From Armatimonadota bacterium (GTDB lineage: Bacteria; Sysuimicrobiota; Sysuimicrobiia; Sysuimicrobiales; Humicultoraceae), in NCBI GenBank assembly GCA_031459715.1, contig JAVKIA010000009.1, positions 1 to 64,000 on the forward strand: a stretch of 64,000 nt of DNA. Direction: 5' to 3'. The notes beneath the pieces are model-generated. The model was given only the letters and a program-made list of their open reading frames with translations. It was not told the DNA's origin and did no database searches. The translations under genes were made by a program, and so were the position numbers. Below, piece by piece: positions 42,785 through 52,248 of this stretch. Each line of letters begins with the position of its first letter. Position 1 is the stretch's first letter.

Positions 42785-45700
42785 TCAGGCGGGGGTCAGA
42801 GCGCGGGCCTGTTCGTAGAGGGCGAGGGTCTCGGGCTGTGGTGTAACGCCCAGCTCCTCACGGAGAGCCTGCTCACAGGTCAGGTACGCGCGGATTGCCG
42901 CCTGCCGATCGCCCCGGGCGAGCGCGTACTGCATCAGGTGGCGGTACGCAGGTTCACGCAGGCGGTCCAGGGCCAGGACCCGTTGGATCGCGTCTAGCGC
43001 CCGGCGGTAATCCCGCCGTCGAGCGTGCAGATCGGCCAGGGTCTCCAGGACCGCGATCTGGATCTCCCGGCGGCGCTCGCGCTCCGCGGCCGGCCAGTCC
43101 GCGTATCGCTCCTCTTCCAGGAGATCACCGCGATACAGTGCGGCGGCCTCCTCGAGAGCGGTCACCGCCTCTGCGAGACGTCCGGTCGCCTCATGGCCCC
43201 GGGCCTCTGCGCGCAGCCGGTCGAACTCGTCGACGTCGATCCAGCAGCGCCCGGCCGCCTCGAACCGGAAGCCGGATCCGTTGCGCACAATGAAGCTCGA
43301 ACGACTGCCCTCGAGGAGCGGTTCCAGGGTCTGACGGAGCGTCTTCACGGCCCCTTTGAGGCTGACTTCGCCCGCCCGCGGGTCGGCTTCCGGCCACAGG
43401 GCTTCGATGATCTCGTCACGGGAGACGAACCGGCTGCGGTGGAGAAGCAGGAACTCCAGCAGGGCTTTCACCTTGTGAGTCTTCCACGCGGCCTCGGGGA
43501 TCGGGCTGCCGTTCCTCAGGATTTCGAATCTGCCCAGGAGTGAGATTCGAAGGGTAACCGGTTCCGGTGGGCGCAATCTGGCCACGGCCTGTTCGCAGAG
43601 CGTCCGCACCTGCCGGTCCTTGCGTGTGAGCTGAAGCAGGGGCCGCCGCGCCCGCGGGTCGCCGATCACCCCGAGGAGGCCGATGGCCCTGGTCCGCAGC
43701 GGCGAGTCGGCGAGCGCCTGCACCAGCGCATCCACCGCATTTGACCCCAGCGCGACCAGCAGGTCCTCCACGGCCTGCGGCTCGACACCTCGCTTGAGTG
43801 CCGTGAGCAGCAATGGTGCCGGTCCAGGCTGCCTCCGCCGCCAGGAACGGGATCAGGTCATCCTTCGCCTGGGCCGCTTGTGTCACGGCGATCCGGAGGA
43901 GGTCGTCTGGCGCTGACGCGGTCAGTTGAGCCTCCCAGAGCGCAACCCGCGCCAGCCCCGGGAGCGTCCCCCAGTCGGAGAAGGCATCACGGACGGCGGG
44001 GAGCAGCGCCGCTGCGCGTGCAGCCTCTCCCCGCGCGTACAACAAACTGATCTGCTCCAGTCGAATTTCGGGAAGGAGCTTCCCAAAACGGCAGCGCTCT
44101 GCGCTTGTGGATGCCGCGGCTAGCAGGCTCTCCGCTTCCGCCGGATTCCCCTGCGCACGCGCCGCGCGGGCGAGACCGAGCAGCGCCACGATACGGGGTT
44201 CCTGCGTTTCGCCTTCGCGCCACAACGCCAGCGTTCGCTGGTACCATCGAGCGGCTTCGGAGGGATCCTGGGCCAGCAGGGCCAGGCCGCCCGCGTGATT
44301 CGTGAGCTGCAGGTCGGTCTGGCGCTCACCCGTGCGGGCGTGTGAGGTTTGCGCCCGCTGCAGGGCATCCCGCGCCGCTGCCAGATCGCGACGTCCGAGT
44401 TCGACGGCAACCATGTCGGCCAGAATCCAGGTTTCGTACGTCTGAGAGCCAACGGCTGTGGCCTCATCCAGCGCCGCCCGATAGAGCTCGACCGAACGAG
44501 TGAACTCCAGGCGCGCCAGAGCGAGAGCCGCGCGGAAGTACTTCTCGCGCAGTCCCTTCCCGGGTTGAGGGACTGGGGCGGCGCGCTCGATGGCGGGGAG
44601 GAGATTTTCCGCTTCACCCAGCCGTCCCAGGTGCAGCAAGCTGTCGGCCAGGACGACCAGCAGGGCGATCTTCCAGCGTGGTTCGACATCAGCGGCCAAA
44701 GAGGCCAGGGCCTCTTGGCATGTGCGTGCCGCTTCTTCAAACCGGTCCATGTGCAGCAGCATGACGGCGATCCCGTGCATGGAAAACGCCCACAGGTTGG
44801 GATCACGTCCTCTCGCTGCCGCAGCGGCACGCTGCGCGAGGGCAAGGCCTCCAGGGTAGTCGCCGACGTACCGGCACGCGCTGGCCCCACAGCGCGTCAT
44901 CCACGGGTATTGCTGCTGAACGTCCTCAGGCAGCCGCAGCACCAGGTCGCGAAACGCATAGGCCAGACGGGAGGTGAGCCGGTCGCCATGCAGCGGCTTC
45001 ATCACGCGCTCGGCCTCTCCCAGCGCTCCCGCCGCAAAGTAGTGACGAACGGCGAGGTCGGGGATGCCTTCTGCTTCAAGCCGTTGCGCCGCTGTATAGT
45101 GCAGTGCCGAGACCGCTTGCGATCCCTCTTCGTCGCTCAGACGCTGCCGGAGGAACTCAGCAAACAACTGGTGGAAGCGGTACCGTGGACCCGCGTCGTC
45201 GAGCCGGTAGAGGAAGAGGTTGCTGCGTTCCACTTCCGCCAGCATCGCCCGCGCCTCGACCTCCGGCACCAGCGCCTGGCATACGGACGGCCAGAGCTCG
45301 GTGAGGATCGACACGCGCAGGACGAAGCCTCGGGTCACCGGCTCGAGCGTGTCCAGCACGGTGGCGGCCAGGTAATCGTAGATCTCTCGCGGAGTACCGT
45401 GCACATCGGCCCGGCCCTGGGCCTTGGTCCTCAGGGCAATCAGCTGCAGGGCGGCCGGCCATCCCTCGGTGCGCTCGGTGAGGCCGCCGGCGAGGAGATC
45501 GTCGATGTGGAGGCCGTGGCTGGTGCGGAAGAACGTTGCTGTCTCGTCCCGTGAGAACTTGAGGTGGCTGTAGTCGACCGTTGTGGCCTGGCCCTGTACC
45601 AGGAGGCGCGGGAGGACTTCCAGGCGCGGCCAGGTCCGCGTGGCGATCACAAAGTGAACGGGTGGCGGAAGGTTACCGAGGAGGTCATCCACCAGGCGCA

Positions 45701-46190
45701 CGACCTCCGGATTGTGCTCGACGGTATGGAAGTCGTCAAGGACGATCACAGTTTCAGGCAGCGTGTCCAGCGCGCCCAGCAGAGCACGGCGCAGTTCTGC
45801 CACCTCCGGTCCCGTCGTCAGCATGCCTTGCACCCGGGCACCGGGGTCCGGCACCACGGCGCAGAGAGCCGCGATCAAGCCGGCACTGAACAGGTTGGGA
45901 TCTGCGTCGGACTCATCGAGGGTGAGCCAGGCGGCGGGCACGCCGGCCTCGGGGAGGGCAGAAAGCAGCAGGCTCGTCTTCCCGTATCCGGCCTCCGCGC
46001 ACAAAAGCAGCAGCCGGCGCGCTGTCCCCTCGCGCACCATCGTCAGGAGCCGCTCGCGCTTCAGGAGCGGGACGCCGATTCGACGCGGGGTGATCTTTGT
46101 GCTGGGAATGTGTGATAGGCCAGTCGTGTTGGACGATCCCCGCGCCGCTACTTGACCCGGCTAGATACGCATTCGCAGCGGGGGCCGCAT
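42785..46190 (-). pseudogene. MalT-like ATPase / BTAD transcriptional regulator, disrupted by an amber codon and a frameshift
   Basis: Two minus-strand frames together encode one regulator of about 1130 residues. The upstream part has the family N-terminus (PSTKITPRRIGVPLLKRERL), Walker A AEAGYGKTSLLL, Walker B VIVLDDFHTVE and TPR-like helices. The downstream part has HEAT-like helices, an OmpR-type winged helix (LRISLLGRFEILRNGSPIPE) and a BTAD domain. The only ATG with a good ribosome site (46190, after GGGAGGTG) is followed at codon 10 by TAG (46163-46161). Near 43820-43835 the frame changes by +1: AAWTGT continues as LLLTALKRGVEP in the other frame. Reinitiation at 46040 could still give a shortened ATPase part. 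Homopolymer error is not obvious at either site. Confidence 0.7.
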
Positions 46191-46785: not shown

Positions 46786-47442
46786 TCAGACGTTTAGCTC
46801 TCGGAGCTCGCCCGTGACCATGTAGACCACGCGCTCGCAGACGTTGGTGACGTGGTCCGCGGCGCGTTCCAGGTGGCGGGCCACGATCAACAGCTCCAGC
46901 GCCCGGGGGATCAGGTTGGGGTCGCGGATCATGATGTCCAGCAGGTCCTTGAAGACCTGGGAGCGCAGTGCGTCTACCTCGTCATCCCTGGCCGCCGTCC
47001 GCACTGCCAGATCGGCATTACGGGTGCCAAAAGCCTCCAGGGCATGGTTTAGCATCTCCTGGACGATCTGCTGCATCCTGGGGATATCCACCAGGGGCTT
47101 GACCGGCGGCTCATTCCCCAGACGCCGCGTCGCCCGGCAGACCCCCTCGGCGTGGTCCGCCATCCGTTCCAGATCCAGGGTGATGGCGAAGACCGAGGCG
47201 ATGGTGCGCAGGTCCCCGGCCATGGGCTGCTGAGTGGCCAGCAGGTGCATGCACCGCTGCTCCAGCTCCAGGTGCATGGCGTCGAGGCGGTCGTCCTCGG
47301 CGATCACCTGCTCGGCCAGGGTTACGTCCCGGGCCTGCAGCGCCTCCACGGCACGGCGGATAGCCTGCCCGGCCAGTACACCCAGCCGGATGACGTCCTC
47401 CTGCAGCCGCTGCAGCTCGCGCTCAAATGCCTCCCGCGTCAC
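46786..47442 (-). CDS. phoU: Phosphate transport system regulatory protein PhoU
   Basis: 218 residues, all-helical with two PhoU repeats. Each repeat carries a metal-binding E/D signature: ITLDLERMADHAEGVCR and IVARHLERAADHVTNVCERV. The N-terminus (AFERELQRLQEDVIRLG) is typical. Represses phosphate signalling and modulates Pst transport. Last gene of pstSCAB-phoU. The GTG at 47442 is chosen by homology, with GAGGT upstream; the longer frame overlaps pstB. Confidence 0.95.
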   Translation of the reverse strand: MTREAFERELQRLQEDVIRLGVLAGQAIRRAVEALQARDVTLAEQVIAEDDRLDAMHLELEQRCMHLLATQQPMAGDLRTIASVFAITLDLERMADHAEGVCRATRRLGNEPPVKPLVDIPRMQQIVQEMLNHALEAFGTRNADLAVRTAARDDEVDALRSQVFKDLLDIMIRDPNLIPRALELLIVARHLERAADHVTNVCERVVYMVTGELRELNV

Positions 47443-47476: not shown

Positions 47477-48295
47477 CTACCCAAACCGCCCGGTGATGTA
47501 CTCCTCAGTGCGCCGGTCCCTGGGAGTGGTGAAGATCTGCTGGGTGGCGCCGAACTCGACCAGCTCCCCGTCCAGAAAAAACCCGGTGAAGTCCGAGACG
47601 CGGGCGGCCTGCTGCATGTTGTGGGTGACAATGACGATGGTAATGCTCTTCGTCAGCTGACGTGCCAGCTCCTCGATGCGCAGCGTGCTGGCGGGGTCCA
47701 GGGCCGAGGCCGGCTCGTCCATCACCAGGACCTCGGGCGAGACGGCCAGCGCCCGGGCGATGCACAGGCGCTGCTGCTGGCCGCCGGAGAGGCTGGTGCC
47801 GGGCCGATGCAGGCGGTCCTTTACCTCGTCCCACAGCGCAGCGGCGCGCAGGCTGCGTTCCACGATCTGGTCCAGCCGCCGCCGGTTCCGTTCGCCGACC
47901 AGCCACCAGCCCGCAGCCACGTTCTCGTAGATGCTCATGGTGGGAAAGGGATTCGGCTTCTGGAAGACCATGCCGATCCTGCGACGGACGAGCACTGCGT
48001 CCACGCCCGGGGCGTAGACGTCCTGGCCGTCCAGCAGCACCTGGCCGGCCACCCGGGCCCCGGGGACCAGTTCGTGCATGCGGTTGAGACAGCGCAGGAA
48101 GGTGGACTTGCCACAGCCCGAGGGGCCAATGATGGCCGTGACCTTCCGCTGGGGAATCTGCAGGCTGATGCCGCGGAGGGCGTGGAGGCGGTCGAACCAG
48201 GCGTGCAGCTCGCGCACCTGAATGCCGCCGGCGTGCTCCATCACCGCCGCGGCCACGGGCACCGAAAGCCCTTCCACTGCCGTAAGGCTGTCCAT
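47477..48295 (-). CDS. pstB: Phosphate ABC transporter ATP-binding protein PstB
   Basis: 272 residues. Walker [10 protein letters not shown], then [19 protein letters not shown] typical of Pst[18 protein letters not shown], signature [16 protein letters not shown], Walker [15 protein letters not shown]-loop [18 protein letters not shown]. Drives high-affinity phosphate import. Confidence 0.96.
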
Positions 48296-48307: not shown

Positions 48308-49159
48308 CTACCTAAGTCTCAGCTGCCGGCCGGCCGCGGTGCGCGCGGCGACGTTGACCAGCAGGACCATGGTCACCAGGACCAGAGCCCCCGCCCAGGC
48401 CTGGCGGTGCCAATCGTCAAAGGGCGAGATGGCGTAGGCGAAGATCTGGATGGGCAGCGCGGCCATGGGCTTGAGCGGGTCCCAGTTCCAGAATCGGTTC
48501 CCGAACGCTGTGAAAAGCAGCGGGGCTGTCTCTCCGGCGATGCGCGCCAGACCGACCATGATCCCGGTGATGATGCCAGCGGCGGCGGTGGGGAGGACCA
48601 CCTGCAGGGTTGTCCTCCACTGAGGAATCCCCAGCGCCAGAGAAGCCTCGCGCACGCTTGACGGCACCAGACGCACGACCTCCTCCGTCGTCCGCAGCAC
48701 GATGGGGATGAGCATTACCCCCAGAGCCACCCCGCCAGCCAGCGCGCTGAAGTGACCAAGCGGCAGAACCAACAGGATGTAGGCGAACAGACCCATGATG
48801 ATGCTGGGCGTTCCGTTCAGCACGTCGGCGGCAAAGCGGGCCAGGTGGGTCAGCCGGATGTGGGGATACTCGGCAAGGAAGACCCCGCCCAGGACCCCCA
48901 GGGGGACCCCCAGAACCGCGGCCAGGGATAGCAGGTAGACCGTCCCCGCGATGGCGTTGGCCATGCCCCCGCCGCGTTCGCCAGCCGGCCCGGGCAGCGA
49001 GGTGAAGAACTCCAGGTTGACGGCCCCAAGGCCCGCGCGCGTCAGGAAGACCAGGATCAAGAAGAGTGGCGCGAGCACCAGAGCGGCACAGAGCGCGGCG
49101 AGCGCCGCCATCACCCTGTTCGTCCATGTTCGCCGCAAATAGCCTCGATCCACGGTCAC
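48308..49159 (-). CDS. pstA: Phosphate ABC transporter permease PstA
   Basis: 283 residues, six membrane helices. FLAEYPHIRLTHLARFAADV and LNGTPSIIMGLFAYILLVLP precede the ABC-docking stretch REASLALGIPQWRTTLQVVL, and RIAGETAPLLFTAFGN is family-specific. The GTG at 49159 overlaps the pstC stop (GTGA); the open frame further upstream is a shadow of pstC. Confidence 0.93.
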   Translation of the reverse strand: MTVDRGYLRRTWTNRVMAALAALCAALVLAPLFLILVFLTRAGLGAVNLEFFTSLPGPAGERGGGMANAIAGTVYLLSLAAVLGVPLGVLGGVFLAEYPHIRLTHLARFAADVLNGTPSIIMGLFAYILLVLPLGHFSALAGGVALGVMLIPIVLRTTEEVVRLVPSSVREASLALGIPQWRTTLQVVLPTAAAGIITGIMVGLARIAGETAPLLFTAFGNRFWNWDPLKPMAALPIQIFAYAISPFDDWHRQAWAGALVLVTMVLLVNVAARTAAGRQLRLR

Positions 49160-50112
49160 TCTCCCAGCACCGCGTCCCTGGCCGCCCGTCCCACCAGGAG
49201 GCGGGCCGCCGCGTTGACGACCACCGTCACGATGAAGAGGGCCACCGCGGTGTAGATCAACGCCGCCACGTACAGGTCGGAGGTCGCCTCCGTGAACTCG
49301 TTGGCGATCACCGCGGGGATGGTGTAAGCGGGAGCCAGCAGCGACGCCTTGATCTGGGGTACGTTGCCTATCACCATGGTCACCGCCATAGTCTCGCCCA
49401 AAGCCCGAGCCAGGGCCAGGAACACCGCCCCCATGATCCCCGAGCGCGCGTAGGGCAGCACCGCCCGCCGGGTCGTCTCCCACCGGGTGGCCCCCAGGGC
49501 CAGCGCCGCCTCCCGCTGGGTGGTGGGGACGGCCCGCATCACCGACGTGCCCACGGCCACGATGAATGGCACGACCATGATGGCCAGGATCAGGCCGGCG
49601 GCCAGCATGCCGATGCCCAGCGGCGGACCGTCAAACAGCGGGAGGAACCCCAGGGCACCTTTCACCAGCGGGGTCAGCACGGAGCGCACCCAGGGAACCA
49701 GGATGAAGATCCCCCAGAGCCCAAAGACGACGCTGGGAACCGCCGCCAGCAGCTCCACCAGGAAGCCTACGGGCACGCGCAGCCATCCCGGAGCCAGTTC
49801 CGAGAGGAAGATGGCCACTCCCAGACCCAGAGGCACGGCCATCGACAGCCCCAAGGTCGAGGAGACCAGCGTGCCGTAGATGAACGGGAGGGCGCCGAAC
49901 TCGTGGGTGACCGGATCCCAGGTCGACCCGGCAAAGAATGTCAGGCCGAATCGCTGGACCGCCGGCCACGCGCCTGCGAGGAGCGCCAGGAGGAGGCCAC
50001 CCAACAGCAGCGGTACGGCCAGCGCCGCTGCTGCCAATACCACCCCGAAGAGCCGGTCGCCGCGGTGTGCGGCGACCGGCCCGGAGGCAGGGGCGGCGAC
50101 CACCGATGCCAT
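49156..50112 (-). CDS. pstC: Phosphate ABC transporter permease PstC
   Basis: 318 residues, six membrane helices. LTFFAGSTWDPVTHEFGALP in the first periplasmic segment, ELLAAVPSVVFGLWGIFILVP, docking motif REAALALGATRWETTRRAVL, and ARALGETMAVTMVIGN. Forms the channel with PstA. Eight bases after pstS. Confidence 0.94.
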   Translation of the reverse strand: MASVVAAPASGPVAAHRGDRLFGVVLAAAALAVPLLLGGLLLALLAGAWPAVQRFGLTFFAGSTWDPVTHEFGALPFIYGTLVSSTLGLSMAVPLGLGVAIFLSELAPGWLRVPVGFLVELLAAVPSVVFGLWGIFILVPWVRSVLTPLVKGALGFLPLFDGPPLGIGMLAAGLILAIMVVPFIVAVGTSVMRAVPTTQREAALALGATRWETTRRAVLPYARSGIMGAVFLALARALGETMAVTMVIGNVPQIKASLLAPAYTIPAVIANEFTEATSDLYVAALIYTAVALFIVTVVVNAAARLLVGRAARDAVLGE

Positions 50113-50119
50113 GCGGAGC

Positions 50120-51193
50120 CTACAGCAGCGACTTGCCGCCGGCGGTGACGCTCTTCAGGGTCCCTTCGATCCGCGCGACCAGGCTCTTGGGCAAGGGAGC
50201 GTAGAGCAGGGTCGGGGCGTACTTCTGCCCCTCGTGAGTCGCCCACCAGAGGAACTCCACCAGCGCCTTCCCCCTGACCGGGTCAGGCTGCTCGCCGTAG
50301 ATCAGGATCCAGGTGAAGCCGGCGATGGGATAGGCGTCCCGTCCGGCCGGATGGGTGAAGAACACCCGGTAGTCCGCCGGGATCAATGGCAGCGCCCCCT
50401 CCATGGCTTTGGTGGTGGTAGAGAGGGAGGGGCGGATGAACCGTCCTGCCCTGTTGCGCACGTTCCCGAAGGTCATCCTGTTGGTCAGGGCGTAGGCCAG
50501 TTCCACGTAGCCCAGGGTGTAGGGGGTCTGGCGCACCAGGCCGGCGACTCCCTCGTTGCCCTTTCCCCCCAGCCCGGTAGGCCAGTTCACGGAGGTCCCC
50601 TCGCCCACCCTGGCCTTCCACTCCGGGCTTACCTTGCTCAGGTAGTTCACCCAGATGGCCGTGGTCCCCGAGCCGTCTGAGCGGTGCACCACAACCACCT
50701 CGGCCGCGGGAAGCTTCACCCCGGGGTTGGCCCGGGCCAGGCGCGGGTCGTTCCAGCGGGTGATCTTCCCCAGGAAGATGTCCGCCAGGACCTCAGGGGT
50801 AAAGTTCAGCCCCTGCCCCACGCCGGGGATGTTGTACACAGGCACCACCGCGCCGGCCACCATGGGGATGTGCAACACCCGACCGCCCGCCTGGGCGATC
50901 TGCTCGTCGGTCATGGGGCCGTCACTGGCGCCGAAGTCCACGGTCTTGGCGATGAACTGCCGGATACCGCCGCCGGAACCGATGGACTGATAGTTGATCT
51001 GCACGCCGCGCTCAGCCGCGTAGAGCTGGGACCACTTGGAGTACAGCGGGAACGGAAAGGTGGCCCCCGCACCGTTGAGGGTGATGGGCTGTGCGCCCGC
51101 GGGCAGGGCGGGCAGGACTGTGCCGGCGACCGCCACCGCCACCATCAGGGCGCGGGCCCAGCGCCTCGTCGTCTCTCCGGAAATCCAACGCAT
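50120..51193 (-). CDS. pstS: Phosphate-binding periplasmic protein PstS
   Basis: 357 residues with signal peptide (ARALMVAVAVAGTVLPALP, cleavage near AGA). Ligand-loop motifs: NGAGATFPFPLYSKW, QSIGSGGGIRQF, DFGASDGPM and VHRSDGSGTTAIWVNYL. Captures phosphate for PstCAB. Of two ATGs, the one at 51193 is eight bases from GGAGGAG and is preferred; 51199 is too close. First gene of the operon, directly behind a run of Pho-box repeats. Confidence 0.95.
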   Translation of the reverse strand: MRWISGETTRRWARALMVAVAVAGTVLPALPAGAQPITLNGAGATFPFPLYSKWSQLYAAERGVQINYQSIGSGGGIRQFIAKTVDFGASDGPMTDEQIAQAGGRVLHIPMVAGAVVPVYNIPGVGQGLNFTPEVLADIFLGKITRWNDPRLARANPGVKLPAAEVVVVHRSDGSGTTAIWVNYLSKVSPEWKARVGEGTSVNWPTGLGGKGNEGVAGLVRQTPYTLGYVELAYALTNRMTFGNVRNRAGRFIRPSLSTTTKAMEGALPLIPADYRVFFTHPAGRDAYPIAGFTWILIYGEQPDPVRGKALVEFLWWATHEGQKYAPTLLYAPLPKSLVARIEGTLKSVTAGGKSLL

Positions 51194-51250
51194 CACCATC
51201 TCTCCTCCTGACCTGATCTCTTGCTGTCACTCCGAAGGTAGCGCCCCAGC

Positions 51251-51300
51251 GTCAAAGGGAAGGCCAAGCCCGGTTGAAATCCAGGTCAAGGAGAGGTGAA
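51251..51300 (-). promoter_or_regulatory. Pho box: five direct repeats with 11-base spacing upstream of pstS
   Basis: Minus-strand hexamers TTCACC (51300), TTGACC (51289), TTCAAC (51278), TTGGCC (51267) and TTTGAC (51256), numbered by first base, are each exactly 11 bases apart. This is the geometry of PhoB/PhoP-type tandem binding sites. TACCTT about 20 bases beyond is a possible -10 for pstS. The box begins 10 bases after the stop codon of the DUF47-winged-helix gene, its probable reader. Confidence 0.75.
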
Positions 51301-51309
51301 GCCTGGAGA

Positions 51310-52248
51310 CTACCCGCGCAGGTCGAGGCGGTAGCCGATGCCGCGGACGGCCACGATGCGGACGCCGCCCTTTGCTTCCACTTTCTTCCGCAACCAGCCG
51401 ATATGCGTGTCCAGGGTGCGGGTGTCGCCGAAGTAGTCCTCGCCCCAGACCTGGTGCATCAGGCGCTCCCGGCGGACCACCTTCCCCTGATGGCGTAGCA
51501 GCAGGTGGAGTAGCTCGAACTCCTTGGCAGAGAGGGGGACCACCTGGTCGGCCACCCGCACCTCGTGCCGCTCCACGTCCAGCACCAGCTCTCCCAGCCG
51601 CAGGTGCTCCTCCCCGCCGGCCCGCACCAGGATCGTCTCCAGGACGTTGGCCACATCCTCATAGCGGTCCGTGCAGGCCTCCAGGGTCTCGCAGATATCC
51701 TTCCACTTGATGATGTCCTTGGGAGCGAACCGCCCGTTGAACAGGGTCTCGATAGCCTCCCGCAGCAGGTCGTCCACCCGGTTCTCTCCACGGTGCAGCG
51801 CACGGGTATGCGGAAAGACGTTCTGCATGCGTCGCAGCTGCCCCACCGCGGCACGCAGTTCTGCGGCCGAAGCCAGGATCTGCTGGGCCATCTCCACCGC
51901 CACGGGGAGGATGCGCCGCAGGCGGTGGAGAGCCACGCGTGCGGCCGCGGCCTCGATCCCGTCCAGGACATCGTCCAGGTAGCCGGTGAGGGCCTGCAGC
52001 GAGGAGGGCTCCACGGGGAGGGCGCGGGGCACCAGCAGGGCGTCGAAGAGGTCGCGGGCGATGGCGTCGCCCTTATGCTCCAGGTCGCGGATCTCCGCCC
52101 ACGCCTGTGGCAAAGGGAGGCGGCCCTGCAGGCCCGACAGGAGCAGGCGCGCAGCGTCCTCAATCGCCCGGGTCATCTCCTCCAGGAGGCCGAACTCCCG
52201 GGCCAGCGTGCCCTCCGCCGTGCTGCGCTGCTCAGAGACTTGCTCCAT
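51310..52248 (-). CDS. DUF47 (PhoU-like) domain fused to a PhoB/OmpR-type DNA-binding domain
   Basis: 312 residues. Residues 1-210 are the all-helical DUF47/Pit-accessory (PhoU-related) fold: EIRDLEHKGDAIARDLFDAL, YLDDVLDGIEA, and KWKDICETLEACTDRYEDVA. Residues 213-310 are a complete Trans_reg_C winged helix: LGELVLDVERHEVRVADQVV, then LSAKEFELLHLLLRHQGKVV, WGEDYFGDTRTLDTHIGWLR and IVAVRGIGYRL. There is no receiver domain, no phospho-acceptor site and no kinase gene in the window. I infer a one-component phosphate regulator that senses Pst/PhoU state or metal-phosphate directly and binds the Pho box next door. It is transcribed toward pstS. Confidence 0.88.
   Translation of the reverse strand: MEQVSEQRSTAEGTLAREFGLLEEMTRAIEDAARLLLSGLQGRLPLPQAWAEIRDLEHKGDAIARDLFDALLVPRALPVEPSSLQALTGYLDDVLDGIEAAAARVALHRLRRILPVAVEMAQQILASAAELRAAVGQLRRMQNVFPHTRALHRGENRVDDLLREAIETLFNGRFAPKDIIKWKDICETLEACTDRYEDVANVLETILVRAGGEEHLRLGELVLDVERHEVRVADQVVPLSAKEFELLHLLLRHQGKVVRRERLMHQVWGEDYFGDTRTLDTHIGWLRKKVEAKGGVRIVAVRGIGYRLDLRG

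Follow-up and report, generated by a model that had tools for sequence, protein, structure and literature searches.

The 64,000-nucleotide (64-kb) stretch of contig JAVKIA010000009.1 (assembly GCA_031459715.1) analyzed here, referred to as the window, carries on its reverse strand a fusion gene for a protein of 312 amino acids (positions 51310–52248), in which a DUF47 (PitR) domain is joined to a PhoB-type winged helix. Downstream of it on the same strand lie pstS (50120–51199; TIGR00975, 388.8 bits against a cut-off of 205), pstC (49156–50112; TIGR02138, 287.9 bits), pstA (48308–49159; TIGR00974, 282.8 bits), pstB (47477–48295; TIGR00972, 381.8 bits), and phoU (46786–47442), all identified with NCBIfam profiles; the last gene encodes a classical two-repeat PhoU (TIGR02135, 215.4 bits; two PF01895 matches), the GTG start of which was chosen by alignment. 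A gene for a MalT-like ATPase/TPR regulator adjoins phoU (43265–46040, reverse strand); its weak Trans_reg_C match (43265–43480) is off-frame relative to the main open reading frame (ORF; 43416–46040), and the gene may be frameshifted. No RNA element was found by Rfam in the 64-kb window. The host belongs to Candidatus Sysuimicrobiota (formerly CSP1-3/ANGP1), a poorly known and mostly uncultured phylum of soil and hot springs, and named records of the fusion include Segetimicrobium (ANGP1) genomes. PhoU, pst, and two-component systems are absent from the main text of the paper that defined the phylum (PMC11604079).

The fusion is encoded by a single reverse-strand ORF of 312 codons that starts with ATG and runs without interruption. 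Residues 19–208 (51625–52194, reverse strand) form a six-helix DUF47/PhoU_div domain with invariant E/DxxxD motifs (PF01865; 57.7 bits against the curated Pfam cut-off of 24.4), and residues 213–310 (51319–51612, reverse strand) form an OmpR/PhoB-type winged helix with the recognition helix RTLDTHIGWLRKKVE, of which residues 235–308 match Trans_reg_C (PF00486; 92.2 bits against a cut-off of 26.2). The Pfam searches returned no match in the fusion to a receiver domain (PF00072), the seat of the phospho-acceptor aspartate, and none to the PhoU domain PF01895 at an E-value of 0.001. An AlphaFold2 model, computed from an alignment of the window sequence with those of its relatives, reached a mean predicted local distance difference test score (pLDDT) of 93.9 and a predicted template modeling score (pTM) of 0.86; it comprises six long helices, the last of which (residues 176–209) leads almost straight into the winged helix at residue 215. 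The DUF47 part of the model has the solved structure 3l39 as its best fold match (E = 1.3e-9; template modeling score of 0.88 over the target), while the nearest solved folds to the winged-helix part are the DNA-binding domains of PhoB, PhoP, YycF, and RegX3, including the DNA-bound structures of PhoB (1gxp) and PhoP (5ed4), and its closest solved sequence is that of RegX3 (2oqr; 4e-22). Among the best fold matches listed, no entry holds both domains in one solved structure. Pfam and the model thus describe a one-component layout, namely a sensory-type and a DNA-binding domain on a single chain and free of phosphotransfer domains; the initial annotation, which had proposed one 312-residue frame of DUF47 plus an OmpR/PhoB domain with no receiver, is borne out by both the ORF and Pfam.

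Because the genomes concerned are metagenome-assembled, an assembly or annotation artefact that fuses two adjacent genes, or an error of frame, could be suspected; however, 19 full-length, single-frame orthologues from four families and two sequence collections refute such an origin for the family as a whole and leave it a next-to-negligible probability, and the fusion is confirmed as real and conserved. It is present in 20 of 43 Sysuimicrobiota genomes (19 full-length copies and one truncated by the end of its contig), and the 18 whole, single-frame copies from other genomes share 58–67% identity with the window copy over its full length. A decayed remnant (G003:C166; locus L059, 1027–1281), with a partial DUF47 domain and the winged helix missing, was also observed between PitR-PitA genes and phoU. 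Outside the phylum, the fusion is absent from 43 genomes of two other phyla, and none occurs among the approximately 70 DUF47 loci of other phyla listed by a scan that covered 84,980 species genomes and was biased to two peptide motifs, so that rare cases elsewhere are possible; on plasmids, no match covered over 80% of the query.

In the alignment of the 19 full-length fusions, the window copy included, the acidic motifs E57-D61, D92-D96, E155-D159, and E190-D194-D198 are invariant, and their positions are also fixed in 23 stand-alone DUF47 proteins, in which residues 193–200 were picked by the search motif and the others were not. Residues R65 and H152 are likewise fixed in the fusions, whereas the free DUF47 domains have H and N, respectively, at these sites (23/23 in both cases); this change possibly marks a retuned metal or ligand site.

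The fusion adjoins pst genes or phoU in 16/19 full-length loci, lying directly 5' of pstS in most of them and 5' of mgsA-pstS in most of genus g13; its other placements are before phoU alone (L054), after pstCAB (L056), and approximately 2 kb from pstS (L049). The methylglyoxal synthase gene mgsA, which scores above its NCBIfam cut-off, stands between the fusion and pstS in most g13 loci, with a box in each gap. Since methylglyoxal synthase releases phosphate and is inhibited by phosphate, this position fits a phosphate-starvation regulon, within which mgsA is possibly a phosphate-releasing bypass. The gene was seen directly 3' of the fusion, and preceded by Pho-box repeats, at L043 (10508–10993), L047 (8460–8936), L052 (5681–6295), and L053; a second, divergent pstS lies directly 5' of the fusion at L045 (1255–2358) and L051 (10467–11690). 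DUF47 and PhoU domains bind metals, and the invariance of the acidic motifs, the fusion-specific R65 and H152, and the location of three fusions away from pst would all suit a DUF47 domain that responds not to phosphate but to a metal, pH, a nucleotide, or the state of a transporter, making the protein a general regulator of transport state. Such a role is nevertheless distinctly unlikely, as the commonest neighbors of the fusion are pstSCAB and phoU, together with the phosphate-sensitive mgsA.

The stop codon of the fusion lies 10 bases before a Pho-box-like operator (51257–51300, reverse strand) composed of four 11-bp direct repeats, TTCACCtctcc TTGACCtggat TTCAACcgggc TTGGCCttccc, the first unit of which, TTCACC, is at 51300–51295 on that strand; a possible fifth, weaker unit, TTTGAC, would extend the box to 51246. 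A Pho box 10 bases past the stop, followed by pstSCAB-phoU, had been annotated initially and is retained, but its position has been corrected from 51251–51300 to 51257–51300. With a leave-one-out position weight matrix built from the boxes of other loci, this operator is the top site in the window (28.6 versus 13.1 for the next unrelated site), and at most of the other loci the matrix likewise scores highest beside the fusion or beside pst genes. Genome-wide scans were made with single patterns; the strict three-unit box occurs once in the 2.76-Mb window genome (97% complete), beside the fusion, and relaxing the three-unit pattern gives 29 sites across the phylum, compared with none for the reversed pattern. 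The boxes of loci with a PhoB-PhoR pair (PhoBR) are mostly TTAAC repeats; at fusion loci, the third base of the unit is C or G (A in 3 of 49 hand-picked units). Repeats of TTCAC at 11-bp intervals were further noted 5' of other OmpR-family regulator genes (G005:C1:1625794, G019:C32:109761, G038:C6:71385, and G042:C77:9357), which suggests that those regulators may control their own genes through a related type of operator.

A −10-like hexamer, TACCTT (51235–51240, reverse strand), fits the pattern TANNNT and keeps the helical phase of the repeats. Promoters of both kinds, fusion and PhoBR, have TANNNT at 15, 26–27, or 36–38 bp from the last unit, and wherever a promoter offers only one candidate, its phase relative to the repeats is 3–5 modulo 11. 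Because the boxes were first chosen by eye and the loci share ancestry, the case for the operator rests on how well position, phase, and varying unit number agree, and not on a p-value. Domains of the PhoB type attach head to tail to direct repeats of 11 bp and turn on promoters without a −35 element; since the boxes here take up the place of the −35 and keep phase with the −10, the arrangement seen in PhoB-activated promoters, the fusion most likely activates. Alternatively, the fusion could repress pst, with a phosphate-bound DUF47 domain causing it to bind and block the promoter, and no design would be simpler than a repressor made of a single chain; however, the geometry is that of the PhoBR promoters of relatives, at which PhoB activates, and repression is accordingly considered quite unlikely.

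At the pst locus, the fusion trades places with PhoB-PhoR. Relatives that have no fusion (L075–L077, L192, and L193) carry a PhoB-PhoR pair in its place at the pst locus, that is, a response regulator with a receiver and a winged helix beside a PAS-HisKA-HATPase kinase, the best NCBIfam match of which is the phosphate kinase PnpS, just below the cut-off; at the pst locus of the window there is no cognate histidine kinase. Each of the pst loci examined has either the fusion or the PhoB-PhoR pair as its regulator, and never both. Both systems occur in genus g20, where the two genomes that were checked (G025 and G034; L259 and L260) have PhoBR at pst and the fusion elsewhere. Among genomes at least 90% complete, 15 have the fusion only, 10 have PhoBR only, two have both, and two have neither (Fisher p = 3e-4, uncorrected for kinship and descriptive only, because the genomes compared are related). 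In a tree of full response regulators, the PhoB clade forms one branch (100/99), and it contains no member from the 97% complete window genome.

Three full OmpR-family regulators with histidine kinases are encoded elsewhere in the window genome, and the kinase of one pair, C31, has a HAMP-PAS-HisKA architecture resembling that of PhoR and scores 285.8 bits against the PhoR profile, making C31 the only PhoR-like pair of the genome. A response regulator of the C31 pair, or of a second pair, C26, could bind the pst box in place of the fusion, which would then be an accessory modulator or competitor, and the TTCAC repeats that precede other OmpR-family regulator genes in relatives would agree with this. 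It is an unlikely arrangement, however, because none of the three regulators is near pst, it is the fusion and PhoBR that replace each other at the pst locus, and the strict box occurs only once in the genome, adjoining the fusion. The C31 regulator groups with a second clade, WalR-like, whose members occur alongside PhoBR in PhoBR genomes, and for this reason it is not the replacement of PhoB. An ordinary PhoBR elsewhere in the window genome was rejected by PhoB/PhoR profile searches and trees, as the only PhoR-like pair is of the WalRK type found phylum-wide. The initial annotation had proposed a direct sensor-to-DNA switch that bypasses PhoR/PhoB; the bypass is supported by the lack of a pst-linked PhoB-clade orthologue in the genome, the swap at the locus, and the operator geometry, but direct sensing is putative, given that phoU is kept in the operon and the signal may pass via Pst-PhoU to the DUF47 domain.

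With a probability of roughly 0.7, the fusion is a one-component phosphate regulator that has, across much of Sysuimicrobiota, supplanted PhoB-PhoR at the pst promoter and acts as an activator of pst, a reading that draws on the observed architecture, conservation, pst linkage, PhoBR swap, operator and promoter geometry, and absence of a PhoB orthologue. Judging from position, conservation, and domain family, the PhoB-type winged helix would bind in head-to-tail order to the 11-bp direct repeats that lie in the fusion–pstS gap, and at low phosphate the protein would most likely recruit RNA polymerase and thereby activate pstSCAB-phoU. The DUF47/PitR domain would stand in for the receiver domain and dimerize the protein; when phosphate is plentiful, it would turn off DNA binding via a metal-phosphate site and/or contact with PhoU-Pst, either reading phosphate itself or being informed by the retained PhoU-Pst complex. 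In the simplest combined model, the phosphate-replete state of DUF47 would release or misorient the activator; both pst activation and phosphate as the ligand are predictions from sequence. A bolder proposal, in which the PhoU/PitR-type domain is a complete phosphate sensor driving DNA binding directly, with neither kinase nor receiver, and in which this one-component Pho switch displaced PhoBR while the promoter geometry was kept, is tentative and somewhat short of an even chance.

Several observations weigh against a regulator of this kind. The comparison of orthologues is phylogenetically non-independent, and phoU is retained, although a fully direct sensor has no obvious use for it. The fusions at L053, L055, and L057 lie away from pst, and two of these three have no nearby box. 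Some of the three-unit sites precede genes of other OmpR-family regulators, and the operator type is not exclusive to the fusion because similar TTCAC repeats stand before such genes; moreover, the g13 pst box is a hybrid, with TTAAC, TTAAC, and TTSACC before pstS. Lastly, the winged helix of the fusion is not clearly closest to PhoB: an origin from the local PhoB clade is compatible with the tree test (p-AU 0.44), grouping with C26-type regulators is weak (79/78), and the tree gives it no firm sister group.

The fusion is a predicted one-component regulator built from two known phosphate-signaling parts, and each part can be compared with its counterparts. In Staphylococcus aureus, PitR, a stand-alone DUF47 protein, lowers pst expression in phosphate-rich medium via PhoPR (PMC13170248), and in mycobacteria PhoU together with phosphate pushes SenX3 towards phosphatase (PMC12301784). 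The fusion has the fold, the acidic E/DxxxD motifs, and the phosphate context of PitR; however, PitR consists of a single domain, has PitA as its partner, and works via a kinase, whereas the fusion has an added DNA-binding domain and is located at pst. The window genome also has a separate PitR-PitA pair (G000:C4; L073, 6449–8068). With PhoB, PhoP, and RegX3, the fusion shares the winged helix, the promoter geometry, and 11-bp direct-repeat operators at pst (its predicted binding site and target), but it has no receiver domain, no phosphorylation site, and no cognate kinase at the locus. The PhoU of the pst operon (PF01895) has a related helical-bundle fold and a role in phosphate, but is a separate protein, still encoded downstream, and its domain has no match in the fusion. 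Double fusions of PhoU and DUF47 of approximately 450 amino acids were also encountered, mostly in Methylomirabilota, at L087 (17014–18372, reverse strand; two PF01895 and one PF01865 matches in Pfam), L093 (10935–12293, reverse), L095 (465–2120, forward), L126 (8236–9591, forward; pstS approximately 3 kb away), L128 (8236–9591, forward), and L138 (2299–3687, forward; labelled Deltaproteobacteria).

In concept, the closest precedent is a group of archaeal regulators, the SpoVT/AbrB-PhoU proteins such as TK2245, in which a PhoU-family domain is likewise joined to a DNA-binding domain (PMC7325993); these proteins, however, combine AbrB-type DNA binding with a classical PhoU domain and have no documented swap with PhoBR, whereas the fusion uses a winged helix. 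No description of DUF47 with a DNA-binding domain was found in the open-access literature searched, and within that literature the initial statement that no such regulator had been described still holds. A 2026 survey of DUF47 was confined to single-domain proteins, so that fused forms would have been outside its reach (PMC13170248).

For decades it has been debated how PhoR learns of phosphate status from PhoU and PitR, and recent work disagrees on whether transport flux or intracellular phosphate is the signal that is read (PMC12301784, PMC13170248). A soluble PitR-type domain wired to a PhoB-type DNA-binding domain takes both the kinase and the transporter out of the assay; if DNA affinity shifts with phosphate or metal in vitro, the sensing step would be isolated. 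The fusion has the appearance of a natural substitute, made of a single protein, for one of the most thoroughly studied signaling pathways of bacteria and, if the reading is true, it would represent a natural conversion of a two-component into a one-component pathway, with both states kept in sister genera.
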